Shown here in pieces: positions 7,010 to 32,292 of a DNA stretch of 32,335 nt; positions within the stretch are counted from its first letter, which is position 1, and every line of letters starts with the position of its first letter. The DNA is from Bryobacterales bacterium (GTDB lineage Bacteria > Acidobacteriota > Terriglobia > Bryobacterales > Bryobacteraceae), in contig PLZX01000336.1 in NCBI GenBank assembly GCA_003152325.1, positions 13,177-45,511 of the forward strand, in the 5' to 3' direction. Position numbers and translations under genes: made by a program. The notes beneath the pieces were generated by a model. It was not told the DNA's origin. It worked only from the letters and a program-made list of their open reading frames with translations, and searched no databases.

Positions 7010-7328
7010 CACATACAGTACAGAACCTGGACCGTTGGGAAATAGGGTACTATAATAGGCCGAGTTTGCCGCTATTTCAAGGGCGGGCGCTTTACCCGCT
7101 CGTCTTCGGCTTGAGCTATTGCAGCGTCCAGTGTTCGAGCTTGACCGCCCAAGCGGACTGCGAAGGGCGCCGAAGTCCGCGCGGCGGTGAAGAAAACCTC
7201 GTGGCCAGAGCCAACAAGTGACCTTCACGCTCAATTCGGAGGACATCCCGGCGTCGAAGTTGGAGATCAGCGTCGGCGGGACAATCACAGGGAACAACGC
7301 GCATGTACAAGGTTACGCTGTAGTGTGA
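7010..7328 (+). pseudogene. Decayed C-terminal remnant of a GH3 glycoside hydrolase
   Basis: One frame reads YYNRPSLPLFQGRALYPLVFGLSYCSVQCSSLTAQADCEG, alignable to YNMTNRTYRYYQGTPLYPFGYGLSYSKFEYSNLKLSAD of the intact GH3 at 8823..11726. After a frameshift, QVTFTLNSEDIPASKLEISVGGTITGNNAHVQGYAVV* (7216-7328) matches the GH3 FnIII-like C-terminus (HVRFTLNPRDL...VFVGGG). The left boundary is approximate. Confidence 0.75.
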
Positions 7329-7400
7329 GGATGCTCGGGCGCCGTATCATGAGCTTCCAGCCCCTCGAGTGATGAGAATGTTTCCTTTTCGGAGGTTTTG

Positions 7401-8798
7401 ATGATTCGAACCCGTCCACATCTCATATTCGCTCTCATGCTCGGTGCTGCGGCTGCTTTCGCGCAGCGGGGCCCGGAGATCCCCCAGCAACTGACGTTTA
7501 CGCCGTATCACGCCAGCGGCATCTACGACATCAGCGAAACCGTCGGCTGGACCGTTGCGCCAGGTCCGGTAACGCCCACCTATCTATATAAGTGGACGAT
7601 TCGCCGCAACAACGCCGTGGTTCTCAAGGAGGGCAAGCTGGACCTTTCCGCAGGCAATGACAAGATCGAAATCGCCGGGGATCAGCCCGAAATGATCTAT
7701 GTCGCGGTGGAAGCATACGCGAACCTCGGCGGCGAGGTGTCGCCCCTGCCCGCCGCTCCTACACCCCAGGATGCCGCCGCTGGCCGGGGCCGCGGCGCCG
7801 CGCCCCGTTTTGTGGGCGGCAACACCGGCCGCAATAACGGGATTTACGCGGTCGGCGCCGCCGTCGCGCCGCTGAAGATCGGGCTTTCGACGCCGCGGCC
7901 CGCCGACTTCGATTCCTTCTGGGATGCCAAGCTCGCGGCTCAAGCCAAAATCCCGATCAACCCCGTCCTGACAGCGGTCCAAACCGATGTCCCTGGAGTT
8001 GAGTTGAGCATGTTCGTCCTCGATGCTCTCGGCTCGAAAACCCACGGCTACCTGGCCAAGCCTACCGAGGATGGAAAGTTCCCGGCGGTCATACAACTGC
8101 AGTACGCCGGCGTGTATGCGTTGAATGCTCGTGGAGCCGCGCAGCGCGCCGCCGAGGGCTGGCTCATGATCAACGTCGATTCACACGACAAGCTGCCGTC
8201 GGATCCATCCGGAGATATCCCGCGGGGCTATCAGGCCGTCGGCAACACCGACCGCGAAGAATCGTACTTTCTCAACATGTATCTGCGGGACTCCCGGGCG
8301 CTGGATTACCTGCTGACGCGGCCCGACTGGGATGGCGAAACCATCGTTCTGACCGGAGGCAGCATGGGCGGCCAACAGAGCATCGTTCTCGCCGGCCTGC
8401 GGCCCGAAAAAATAACCGCGGCGCTGGTCTGCGTGCCGGCCGGTGCCGATACCAACGGCGATCTGCACGGCCGGAAGGCCGGCTACCCCAACTGGCCATC
8501 GGACAACCCCGACGTGATGAAGACCGCGCTCTACTTCGATACCGTCAATTTCGCTTCGCGCATCAAGGCGCCGGTAATGGCAGGTATGGGCTTCATCGAT
8601 ACTACATCGCCGCCCGCCGGGGTCTGGACGATGCTCAATCAGATCCCCGTCCCCAAAGAACCGTTGCCCATGATAGAGTCCGACCACGACAACTTTACGC
8701 CCGACAAAGGACGGGCCTGCCCCGCGAGGACGCGGGAAATACTGGATCAGTTGGTGAAGGGCGGTGAGTACAAGCCCACGGCGTCAAGTCCTAAATGA
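7401..8798 (+). CDS. Secreted CE7/AXE1-like acetylxylan esterase (alpha/beta hydrolase)
   Basis: Signal peptide; RPADFDSFWDAKLA, nucleophile motif TGGSMGGQQSIVLAGL, late MGFIDTTSPPAGVW (Asp) and ESDHDN (His) motifs. The ORF is listed from TTG 7398; the ATG at 7401 follows GGAGG. Confidence 0.85.
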   Translation: MIRTRPHLIFALMLGAAAAFAQRGPEIPQQLTFTPYHASGIYDISETVGWTVAPGPVTPTYLYKWTIRRNNAVVLKEGKLDLSAGNDKIEIAGDQPEMIYVAVEAYANLGGEVSPLPAAPTPQDAAAGRGRGAAPRFVGGNTGRNNGIYAVGAAVAPLKIGLSTPRPADFDSFWDAKLAAQAKIPINPVLTAVQTDVPGVELSMFVLDALGSKTHGYLAKPTEDGKFPAVIQLQYAGVYALNARGAAQRAAEGWLMINVDSHDKLPSDPSGDIPRGYQAVGNTDREESYFLNMYLRDSRALDYLLTRPDWDGETIVLTGGSMGGQQSIVLAGLRPEKITAALVCVPAGADTNGDLHGRKAGYPNWPSDNPDVMKTALYFDTVNFASRIKAPVMAGMGFIDTTSPPAGVWTMLNQIPVPKEPLPMIESDHDNFTPDKGRACPARTREILDQLVKGGEYKPTASSPK

Positions 8799-8822: not shown

Positions 8823-11726
8823 ATGAAATGCGCTTTTTTAGCTCCCTTCGCGCGGCGCGCGGTGCAAGAGTACCCTCGGATAAACATGTTCACCTGGCGT
8901 ACCTCCTGTGGCGGGCGTGCAGTTTTGGCCGCCGGTCTGATATTTCTAAGTTGCGTGGGCCCGGCCGCGGCCCAGCAGCAGGGCGCCGCCTCGCTCCCGT
9001 TCATGAACCCGTCGTTGACGCTCGACCAGCGCGTGGACGACCTCGTTTCGCGTCTCACCATCGAAGAGAAGGCCGGGCAGATGATCAACACAGCCGCCGC
9101 CATCCCGCGTCTGCAGATCCCCGCCTATAACTGGTGGAATGAGGCCCTGCACGGGCTGGTTTCGGGCAACGTCACCGTCTTCCCGCAGGTGATCGGCCTG
9201 GGCGCGACCTTCAACTCGGCCTTGATCAAGCAGATGAGCACCGTGATCAGCACCGAAGCGCGCGCGCGCTACAACCAATCCCGGCAACAGCAGCAGGCCG
9301 GTGGAGCGGCACCCGGCCGCGGCGCTGGTCTGGATTTCTGGGCGCCCAACATCAACATCTTCCGCGATCCGCGCTGGGGCCGCGGCCAGGAAACCTACGG
9401 CGAGGATCCGTTCCTCACCGCGCGCATGGGCGTATCTTTCGTCCAGGGCATGCAGGGCGATGATCCGAAGTACTTCAAGACGGTTTCCACGCCGAAGCAC
9501 TTCGCCGTGCACAGCGGTCCGGAACCCACCCGCCATTTCTCGGACGTGAGCGTTTCCCTGCACGACATAGAAGACACCTACCTGCCGGCGTTCCGCGCCA
9601 CCGTCGTGGAAGGCAAGGCGGACTCGGTGATGTGCGCCTATAACCGCATCAACGGCGAAGCGGCCTGCTCCAGCAAGTTCCTCCTGCAGGACACGCTGCG
9701 CGACGCCTGGAACTTCAAAGGCTACGTGGTTTCCGACTGCGGCGCGATCTCCGACATCTATAAGAAGCCGGGCATCGGCCACCACATCGTGAACACGCTG
9801 GCCGAAGCCGCAGCCCTTTCGTTGAAGACCGGCACGGACAGTGATTGCGTCTGGCAGACAAACGACGTTCCCGCGTACCTGGAAGCCATGCAGAAGGGCC
9901 TCATCAGCCAGCAGGAAGTGGACGTCAACCTGAAGCGCCTCTTCAAGGCCCGCTTCCAGTTGGGCATGTTCGATCCGCCCGAGATCGTTCCGTACTCGAA
10001 GATCTCCCCCAATGAGGTGGACACGCCGGAACACCGCGCACTGGCGCTGAACGTCTCCCGCCAGGCCATGGTGCTGCTGAAGAACGACGGCATCCTGCCG
10101 CTCAAGTCCAGCGTGAAGACCATCGCCGTCGTGGGGCCGCTTGCTGATAACGAAACCGTACTGCGCGGCAACTACAGCGGCACGCCGAGCCATTCCACGA
10201 CCATCCTAGACGGCATCCGCAAACAGTTCTCCGGCGCCACCGTCACTTACACACCGGGCACCAAGTTTTTGCGCAACGCCGTCATCATTCCGACGTCGGC
10301 CCTCAAGACCGCCTCCGGCCAGCCGGGAGTGGACGCCGTGTACTTCAACAACAAGACCCTCTCCGGCCAACCCGCAGCCAGCCGCGTGGAACAGCAGATC
10401 GGCACCGCGCCGATGGGCTTCGGCGGCGGACGCGGCGCCGGGCAACCGGCTCCCCGCCTGCCGGCGGAAGTGAATACCAGCGGCGATTTCTCCGGCCGTT
10501 GGACCGCTACCCTCACCGCGCCGGAAACCGGCAAGTGCGAGTTCAGCATTAGCGGTAACGGCGGCGTGCGCATCAGCATTGACGGGAAGCAAGTCGTCAA
10601 CGACTGGGTGCAGCGCGCCCCTGCCGGCCGCGGCGCGGCATTCGGCGGTCCAGGCCTGCAGGAACGCACGTCCGAAATCAGCTTTGAAAAAGGCAAGACC
10701 TACAACCTGGTCGTGGAGTTCTTTCGCGATGCCGCTGAAGCCACGGCGCAGACCAACGCCTCCGCCGCTGCCAATGCCGCAGCCGTCATTGCGGCGGCCG
10801 GCGGACCGGGCCGCGGCGGCGCCGCGCCGGTCACCGGCCCCACGCTGAACTGGAACTACGGCTACGATCCCGAAGCGGCCCTCAACGCCGCCCAAAAGGC
10901 GGATATCGTGGTCGCGGTGGTCGGCATCACTTCGCAATTGGAAGGCGAACAGGGCAACACCCGCGGGGAGTTGCCGGAAGGCTTCCAGGGCGGCGACCGC
11001 ACCGTCCTCGATCTGCCGAAGGATGAAGAGGTTCTTCTCCAAGCCATGAAGACCGCCGGCAAGCCGCTCATCGTCACCCTCGTCAACGGCAGCGCCATGG
11101 CGGTCAATTGGGCCGACCAGAACGCCAACGCCATCCTGGAAGCCTGGTATCCGGGCGAAGATGGCGGCCAGGCGGTGGCCGAAACCCTCGCCGGCGTGAA
11201 TAACCCGGCCGGCCGCCTTCCGCTCACCTTCTACAAGGGCCTGGCGGACCTGACACCCTTCTCCGACTACAACATGACGAACCGTACCTACCGCTATTAC
11301 CAAGGTACGCCGCTCTATCCGTTCGGCTACGGCCTGAGCTACTCGAAGTTTGAGTACAGCAACCTGAAACTCTCCGCCGACACCCTACAGGCGGGTTCCG
11401 ACCTCACTGTGGAAGTGGATGTGAAGAACGTCAGTTCCATCCCGGGCGATGAAGTGGCGCAGCTCTATCTGGTGTTCCCGAAGGTACCAGGCGCTCCGCT
11501 GCGCGCGCTGCGGGGGCTCGAACGGGTCAGCATTCCCGCCGGCCAGTCCAAGCACGTGAGGTTCACTCTGAACCCGCGGGATCTGAGCTGTGTCAGCGAA
11601 GATGGCGAAACCCGCGTGGCCCCGGGTGCCTACAAGGTGTTCGTGGGCGGCGGACAGCCGAACACCAAGGCCCCCGGCAAGGAAGTCGCCCTCACCATCC
11701 AGGGCGAACAGAAGCTGCCACGGTAA
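8823..11726 (+). CDS. GH3 beta-xylosidase/beta-glucosidase with PA14-like insert, secreted (alternative ATG 8886)
   Basis: DDLVSRLTIEEKAGQM, nucleophile region GYVVSDCGAISDIY, PA14-like segment (SGRWTATLTAPETGKCEFSISGNGGVRISIDGKQVVNDW), TPLYPFGYGLSYSKFEYSNL and FnIII-like tail. Confidence 0.93.
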   Translation: MKCAFLAPFARRAVQEYPRINMFTWRTSCGGRAVLAAGLIFLSCVGPAAAQQQGAASLPFMNPSLTLDQRVDDLVSRLTIEEKAGQMINTAAAIPRLQIPAYNWWNEALHGLVSGNVTVFPQVIGLGATFNSALIKQMSTVISTEARARYNQSRQQQQAGGAAPGRGAGLDFWAPNINIFRDPRWGRGQETYGEDPFLTARMGVSFVQGMQGDDPKYFKTVSTPKHFAVHSGPEPTRHFSDVSVSLHDIEDTYLPAFRATVVEGKADSVMCAYNRINGEAACSSKFLLQDTLRDAWNFKGYVVSDCGAISDIYKKPGIGHHIVNTLAEAAALSLKTGTDSDCVWQTNDVPAYLEAMQKGLISQQEVDVNLKRLFKARFQLGMFDPPEIVPYSKISPNEVDTPEHRALALNVSRQAMVLLKNDGILPLKSSVKTIAVVGPLADNETVLRGNYSGTPSHSTTILDGIRKQFSGATVTYTPGTKFLRNAVIIPTSALKTASGQPGVDAVYFNNKTLSGQPAASRVEQQIGTAPMGFGGGRGAGQPAPRLPAEVNTSGDFSGRWTATLTAPETGKCEFSISGNGGVRISIDGKQVVNDWVQRAPAGRGAAFGGPGLQERTSEISFEKGKTYNLVVEFFRDAAEATAQTNASAAANAAAVIAAAGGPGRGGAAPVTGPTLNWNYGYDPEAALNAAQKADIVVAVVGITSQLEGEQGNTRGELPEGFQGGDRTVLDLPKDEEVLLQAMKTAGKPLIVTLVNGSAMAVNWADQNANAILEAWYPGEDGGQAVAETLAGVNNPAGRLPLTFYKGLADLTPFSDYNMTNRTYRYYQGTPLYPFGYGLSYSKFEYSNLKLSADTLQAGSDLTVEVDVKNVSSIPGDEVAQLYLVFPKVPGAPLRALRGLERVSIPAGQSKHVRFTLNPRDLSCVSEDGETRVAPGAYKVFVGGGQPNTKAPGKEVALTIQGEQKLPR

Positions 11727-29705: not shown

Positions 29706-29844
29706 ATAACCTCCTGGTGCTTTTGCCGGCGATGGTACGCTGTTAGCGCTTCAAGATGGAAATCGCCTGTCGTCATTCCTTGGTACTGTCTGAAGTGTAT
29801 TCCAGCGCGCCCTTTATTTCCAGGATGGCGGTGTCTCAAATGAC

Positions 29845-29868
29845 GCCGCGTTGCATGCCGCGTTGCAG
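29845..29868. repeat. 12-bp tandem duplication GCCGCGTTGCAT/GCCGCGTTGCAG
   Basis: Two adjacent copies, 11/12 identical. Confidence 0.6.
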
Positions 29869-29901
29869 CATCACCCGCGATTCACGGATGTATACTGGGC
29901 T

Positions 29902-29923
29902 ATTTCATGGCGGGCAATGAAAT
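29902..29923. promoter_or_regulatory. Inverted repeat ATTTCAT-N8-ATGAAAT upstream of the esterase
   Basis: Perfect 7-bp arms, 19 bp upstream of ATG 29943. Confidence 0.4.
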
Positions 29924-29933
29924 CAGATTTTAG

Positions 29934-31115
<1,182 letters not shown>

Positions 31116-31116
31116 T

Positions 31117-31243
31117 CCATGATCGCGCCGGAACGCGATAAACTCCCTGCCCGGACGCGCCTGCCCCGCGCGCAAGTAATGAACTACTCGATCGGTTGGT
31201 GACTGGCGGCGAGTTCAAGCCGACAGCAATCAGGCGATAGATC
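31117..31243 (+). pseudogene. Decayed C-terminal remnant of a CE7/AXE1-like esterase
   Basis: Frame-shifted pieces ACPAR (31167-31181 region) and LLDRLVTGGEFKPTAIRR* match ACPART...ILDQLVKGGEYKPTA at the end of the intact CE7-type gene (7401..8798). Similarity is also visible at nucleotide level (gcctgccccgcg; ggttggtga-tggcggcgagttcaagccgac vs agttggtgaagggcggtgagtacaagcccac). Confidence 0.7.
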
Positions 31244-31251
31244 TGCTTGCG

Positions 31252-32292
31252 CTATTTGAAGATGCGCTGGCTAAAGAGGTACAGGTTGTTGTCCCACTCG
31301 GTGTTGTCGTGGGCATTTCCATCCACGTGCCAGACGTGCGGGACGCCGTTCTCCTTGAGATAGCCGTGGACCGCCTGGCTGATGCGTATCAGGTTGTCCT
31401 TGTTCCCACAGGCCAGCCAAATCAGCTTCAACTGCTTGGGAACCGCCGGATCGGGCACGAGTGCGGACGGAGGCTCCTTGGTGTCCGGGGCTGACGAGAA
31501 CCCACCGACCCAGGCGAACGTCTCGGGGTGAACCAGACCGATGTTCAAGGTCTGGCCGCCCCCCATCGAGAGACCCGCCAGGCCGCGATGATCGCGGTCG
31601 GTGTACACGGAATAGTGAGCATCGACGTAGGGGATGATGTCTTTGAGCAGGTCGCTCTCGAAGGGCGTCAGCCACGGGTCCATTCCCATCCTGCCGCCCC
31701 CGCCGCGTCCGGCTCCGGCTCCTGCCCCGCCGCCCCCAGCCGCCAGGTCGGCCGCCGACCTGGATGAATTGCCGTCGGGGAAGACTAAGACCATCGGCTG
31801 AATCTTGCTCTCGGCCAGGAGGTTGTCGATGATGATATTCGCGTGGCACGCTTCCGTCCACTCGGTGTCGGTGCCGCCGATGCCGTGCAGCAGATAGAGC
31901 ACCGGGTACTTGCGATTCGTCGAGTAGGCCGGCGGCGTGTAGACGCGCATCCGGCGGCGCGTTCCGAGCGACTTGGAGTCGTACTCAACGGGCGTGAGCT
32001 CGCCGTGAGGGACGTCTTCACGCCGTGCGTTGAACCCGGATGGCGGATCAGGAAAAGCAGGCTTGTCATCCGGGCCCAACTCAATCGGTCCGCCGAAGCT
32101 GCCTCTGCCTCTGCCGGCGACCTGTGGGGCCGCTGCGCCGCGCGCCGCCGCATCCTGGACAGCCGCAAGCAATGTGGGGGCCACCTGCCTCACGCCGGCC
32201 TTGGAGTCGCTCGAAGTCCTATCGGTCTGAGCCAGACACGTCCCAACAACCAACGTCACCGTGAATAATACAAAGAACAGAGCTCGTTTCAT
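31252..32292 (-). CDS. CE1-like secreted esterase with Gly/Ala-rich insert
   Basis: Signal peptide; [54 protein letters not shown]; low-complexity LAAGGGGAGAGAGRGGGGRMGMDPW; SD AAGGAGA upstream. Confidence 0.92.
   Translation of the reverse strand: MKRALFFVLFTVTLVVGTCLAQTDRTSSDSKAGVRQVAPTLLAAVQDAAARGAAAPQVAGRGRGSFGGPIELGPDDKPAFPDPPSGFNARREDVPHGELTPVEYDSKSLGTRRRMRVYTPPAYSTNRKYPVLYLLHGIGGTDTEWTEACHANIIIDNLLAESKIQPMVLVFPDGNSSRSAADLAAGGGGAGAGAGRGGGGRMGMDPWLTPFESDLLKDIIPYVDAHYSVYTDRDHRGLAGLSMGGGQTLNIGLVHPETFAWVGGFSSAPDTKEPPSALVPDPAVPKQLKLIWLACGNKDNLIRISQAVHGYLKENGVPHVWHVDGNAHDNTEWDNNLYLFSQRIFK

Follow-up and report, generated by a model that had tools for sequence, protein, structure and literature searches.

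The window, a stretch of 32,335 nucleotides, is part of contig C163 of a 5.9-Mb assembly (388 contigs, 82% complete) and carries a polysaccharide-degrading cluster of GH43, GH3 and GH31 genes, an arabinofuranosidase, a LacI regulator, a TonB-type receptor and several esterases. We compared it with MAGs of Acidobacteriota from the order Bryobacterales and the family Bryobacteraceae; a literature search for CE7 in Bryobacteraceae found nothing. Two of the esterases, both matching PF00756, converge on a gap of 136 bp (31115/31252), as the original prediction had described, and the gap holds the relic of a CE7 gene (Table 1). The intact CE7 gene elsewhere in the window matches PF05448 at 2e-25, and just upstream of it the tail of a GH3 gene, also proposed beforehand, is detectable by tblastn (E=8e-7), split over two reading frames. 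Right after the window end (32335) there is a run of 24 N (L045 5512-5535), and the 781-aa open frame across it fuses two separate esterase genes, an artefact.

In relatives the usual operon consists of a GH43-like gene, a gene for a ~225-aa protein, CE7 and CE1. The CE7-CE1 operon conserved there is broken up in this genome, where its genes are spread over ~45 kb of the contig (CE7 at 20.6 kb, CE1 at 43.1 kb and the GH43-like/225-aa pair at 63.4-65.8 kb). With this scattering and the GH3 relic, the repeated loss and rearrangement that had been suggested for the locus is a fair description. The ~225-aa protein (L046 5103-5798; family F1, present at many loci) is a conserved member of the Bryobacteraceae operon, encoded between the GH43-like gene and CE7, and has no Pfam match.

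Table 1. Coordinates of the features discussed, in window positions
Feature	Position	Strand	Evidence or remark
GH3 gene tail, second relic, frameshifted (FQGRALYP.., GQSQQVTFTLNSEDI...)	7075..7329	+	upstream of intact CE7
CE7, intact	7401..8798	+	only one found in assembly; probably not direct parent of the relic
CE1-like esterase, intact, PF00756 with CBM48-like N-terminus	29943..31115	+	domain match, end to end
CE7 (AXE1-type) esterase gene relic	31117..31240	+	alignment, window-free profile, tblastn, tail tree
Short spacer, relic stop to 3' end of reverse esterase	31241..31251	.	alignment with L149
CE1-like esterase, PF00756 end to end	31252..32292	-	putative former convergent partner of lost CE7

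A disabled CE7 gene tail

Aligned by Smith-Waterman with the tail of the intact CE7 gene, the gap scored 63, as against a mean of 16 and a maximum of 26 for shuffled sequences (n=2000) and 25 for the best-scoring part of the rest of the window, CE7 excluded; the core of the alignment (CE7 positions 8709-8783) has 77% nucleotide identity over 75 bp, and tblastn with the intact CE7 protein found the gap at E=2e-7. To avoid dependence on the window's own gene, a DNA profile was built with the window left out, on full-length CE7 genes taken from other genomes, and with it nhmmer matched 31110-31237 at E=3.6e-13, a homology to CE7 genes that is beyond chance and marks CE7 ancestry. The match covers model positions 1225-1358 of 1361 and so stops at most three positions short of the model end, and in the alignment the stop codons of full CE7 genes fall on its TAG (31238-31240). 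Read with its frames corrected, the relic gives MI..E.D..., RACPAR and ELLDRLVTGGEFKPTAIRR followed by the stop, and its C-terminal end (GCAATCAGGCGATAG) is comparable to that of the CE7 of L060 (GGCATCAGGCCATGA). As judged by this homology, 31117-31240 is the 3' end of a CE7 (AXE1-type) gene, stop codon included: 124 bp, or about the last 41 of ~465 codons, the alignment reaching back to 31117 with looser scoring. A fossil CE7 C-terminus between convergent CE1-like genes had been predicted at 31117-31243, which was right to within a few bases, and the alignment to the CE7 tail is far better than that of shuffled sequence. Chance similarity in GC-rich DNA, for which only the shortness of the match speaks, is refuted by the shuffle test, the profile E-value and the junction shared with a relative (see below), and its probability is practically negligible.

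The relic is disabled. The frameshifts that had been noted in it are two: 5 bp are missing near 31152, and 1 extra bp is present near 31181. The N-terminal ~90% of the CE7 gene is absent, which leaves no complete alpha/beta-hydrolase domain with its nucleophile motif; truncation and frame disruption (-5, +1) relative to intact homologues are those of a pseudogene remnant. The codon of the conserved His, which is CAC or CAT in the aligned full genes, is CGC (Arg) in the relic; this His belongs to the CE7 motif ES(D/E)HDN, and we take it to be the C-terminal His of the catalytic triad. Compared with L060, the relic differs at 6/41 first, 9/41 second and 21/41 third codon positions. The excess at third positions suggests, on small numbers, that selection had acted on the CE7 gene for a long time before it was inactivated, and the raised second-position count, on equally few sites, fits later decay. 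No promoter or terminator was found within the relic, no present function is indicated, and judging from its sequence it most likely does nothing.

A DNA search of the same assembly gave the relic and the intact CE7 alone; a second CE7 tail relic was not found in ~870 kb of related loci searched with the CE7 profile, and the gap that precedes the CE1 gene (29706-29942) contained no CE7 remnant by either profile or tblastn.

Parentage of the relic and the junction shared with G421

The original prediction matched the relic to the intact CE7 at 7401-8798; the match itself holds, but direct descent from that gene is improbable, since the CE7 of another Bryobacteraceae genome, G421 (locus L149), is closer by its higher identity, by the tree of CE7 tails and by a shared place beside the reverse-strand esterase. 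Over the whole tail the relic is 73.8% identical to L149 and 68.0% to the window's own CE7. In the tail tree the relic is the closest to the tail of L149 and is joined with it (support 0.86), a position weakly supported because the relic is only 124 bp long, and the window's CE7 groups elsewhere. The CE7 tail of L146 (G423) is equally close (74.0%), but its neighbour differs, so that by sequence and position combined the best match is the intact CE7 of G421.

Synteny with relatives, which had been suggested as a check, was informative here. In G421 the intact CE7 is convergent with about the last 25 codons of a reverse-strand esterase (L149 5325-5399), the mirror image of the arrangement in the window, and 23/24 amino acids of this remnant are identical to those of the window's reverse esterase. 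At the DNA level, 31117-31327 matches L149 at 74% (blastn E=1.5e-35) across the CE7 tail, the spacer and the esterase tail, the spacer having a counterpart of ~29 bp that is alignable in part. An intact relative of the reverse esterase in G487 (L181) adjoins the same type of esterase as abuts the remnant in G421, and the G421 remnant therefore looks like a deletion product too. The reverse esterase occurs at 12 further loci too, and there a different sequence lies downstream of it.

We weighed whether recombination within the cluster could instead have copied part of the window's CE7 tail (8668-8798) to a place behind the CE1 gene, given that both lie in one rearranged cluster and share the 77% core. 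However, whole-tail identity is 68% to that gene versus 74% to both L149 and L146, the relic has the common ending ..AIRR or ..GIRP before the stop that the window's CE7 does not have, and G421 shares its junction with the reverse esterase, all of which make such a duplication unlikely.

The CE1 gene on the other side offers no better origin. Its closest relative, in L084 (85% at the nucleotide level), is homologous over 29929-31118 and its homology stops at 31118, among the first bases of the relic; in the CE1 tree the window CE1 groups with L084, outside the clade of operonic CE1 genes (support 100/99). Since the gene is non-operonic in the tree and the L084 homology ends where the relic starts, the relic is unlikely to have arrived with it. 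The same tree position speaks against a tandem duplication of the conserved CE7-CE1 operon in which the second CE7 was later deleted. Nine relative loci do have CE7 directly upstream of CE1, and a tandem copy would put a CE7 downstream, but such a duplication is not needed for the CE7/reverse-esterase junction of G421, and we regard it as distinctly unlikely. A simple CE1-CE7 tandem ancestor was rejected, the conserved operon having CE7 upstream of CE1 and not downstream. The same-strand order CE1 then CE7 was seen in one relative only (L061), with an intervening gene. That full-length CE7 (L061 9020-10401) has a single 1-bp deletion near 9771, which makes it a recent pseudogene unless the deletion is an assembly error.

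Proposed history and comparison with known remnants

Probably, an ancestral convergent CE7/CE1 pair lost the CE7 body here and the CE1 body in G421. In the ancestor, a complete CE7 gene would have faced the reverse-strand CE1-like esterase tail to tail. A deletion would then have taken ~90% of CE7, along with whatever separated it from the CE1 gene now at 29943-31115; its breakpoints would lie directly after the stop codon of that CE1 gene and within the CE7 motif PMIES. The leftover tail, freed from selection, would then have acquired its two frameshifts and amino-acid-changing substitutions, and in G421 the opposite partner would have decayed, leaving CE7 intact and the reverse esterase cut to its last ~25 codons. 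That the relic is CE7, that it is disabled and that its junction occurs in G421 as well is shown by the sequences; that there was a single deletion, where it broke and in which order things happened is what we infer, the breakpoints being taken from the sequence as it stands today. Among the 237 family genomes searched, with the flanks of the best matches examined, none had both convergent genes intact, so that the ancestral pair itself is an inference. Reciprocal loss in a relative makes a tidy story but is one case, the shared junction being known from G421 only, on a single 8.9-kb contig of a fragmentary MAG. That both lineages broke reciprocally through preferential retention of 3' tails, for instance as a buffer between convergent genes, is very unlikely.

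The relic thus records a reshuffling of a sugar-polymer esterase cluster in a soil acidobacterium. It illustrates how carbohydrate-esterase clusters turn over in Bryobacteraceae, where genes shift between loci and deletions leave recognisable tails, and how synteny can trace a relic of 124 bp to a more probable ancestral gene than its most conspicuous nearby paralogue. Beyond this family it alters nothing.

In regard to known systems, the relic corresponds to the C-terminal end of a CE7/acetyl xylan esterase AXE1 (PF05448) gene, and it is not an active member of that family because it is cut short, its frame is broken and the conserved His codon has been replaced. It is ordinary bacterial gene decay, which is well supported. 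Set beside published truncated bacterial pseudogenes and gene remnants (Genome Biol 2004, PMC522871; Pseudofinder, PMC9336565), it is alike in being a disabled intergenic fragment of a known gene and shows no essential difference; its one unusual trait is the loss, in a relative, of the other member of the convergent pair.
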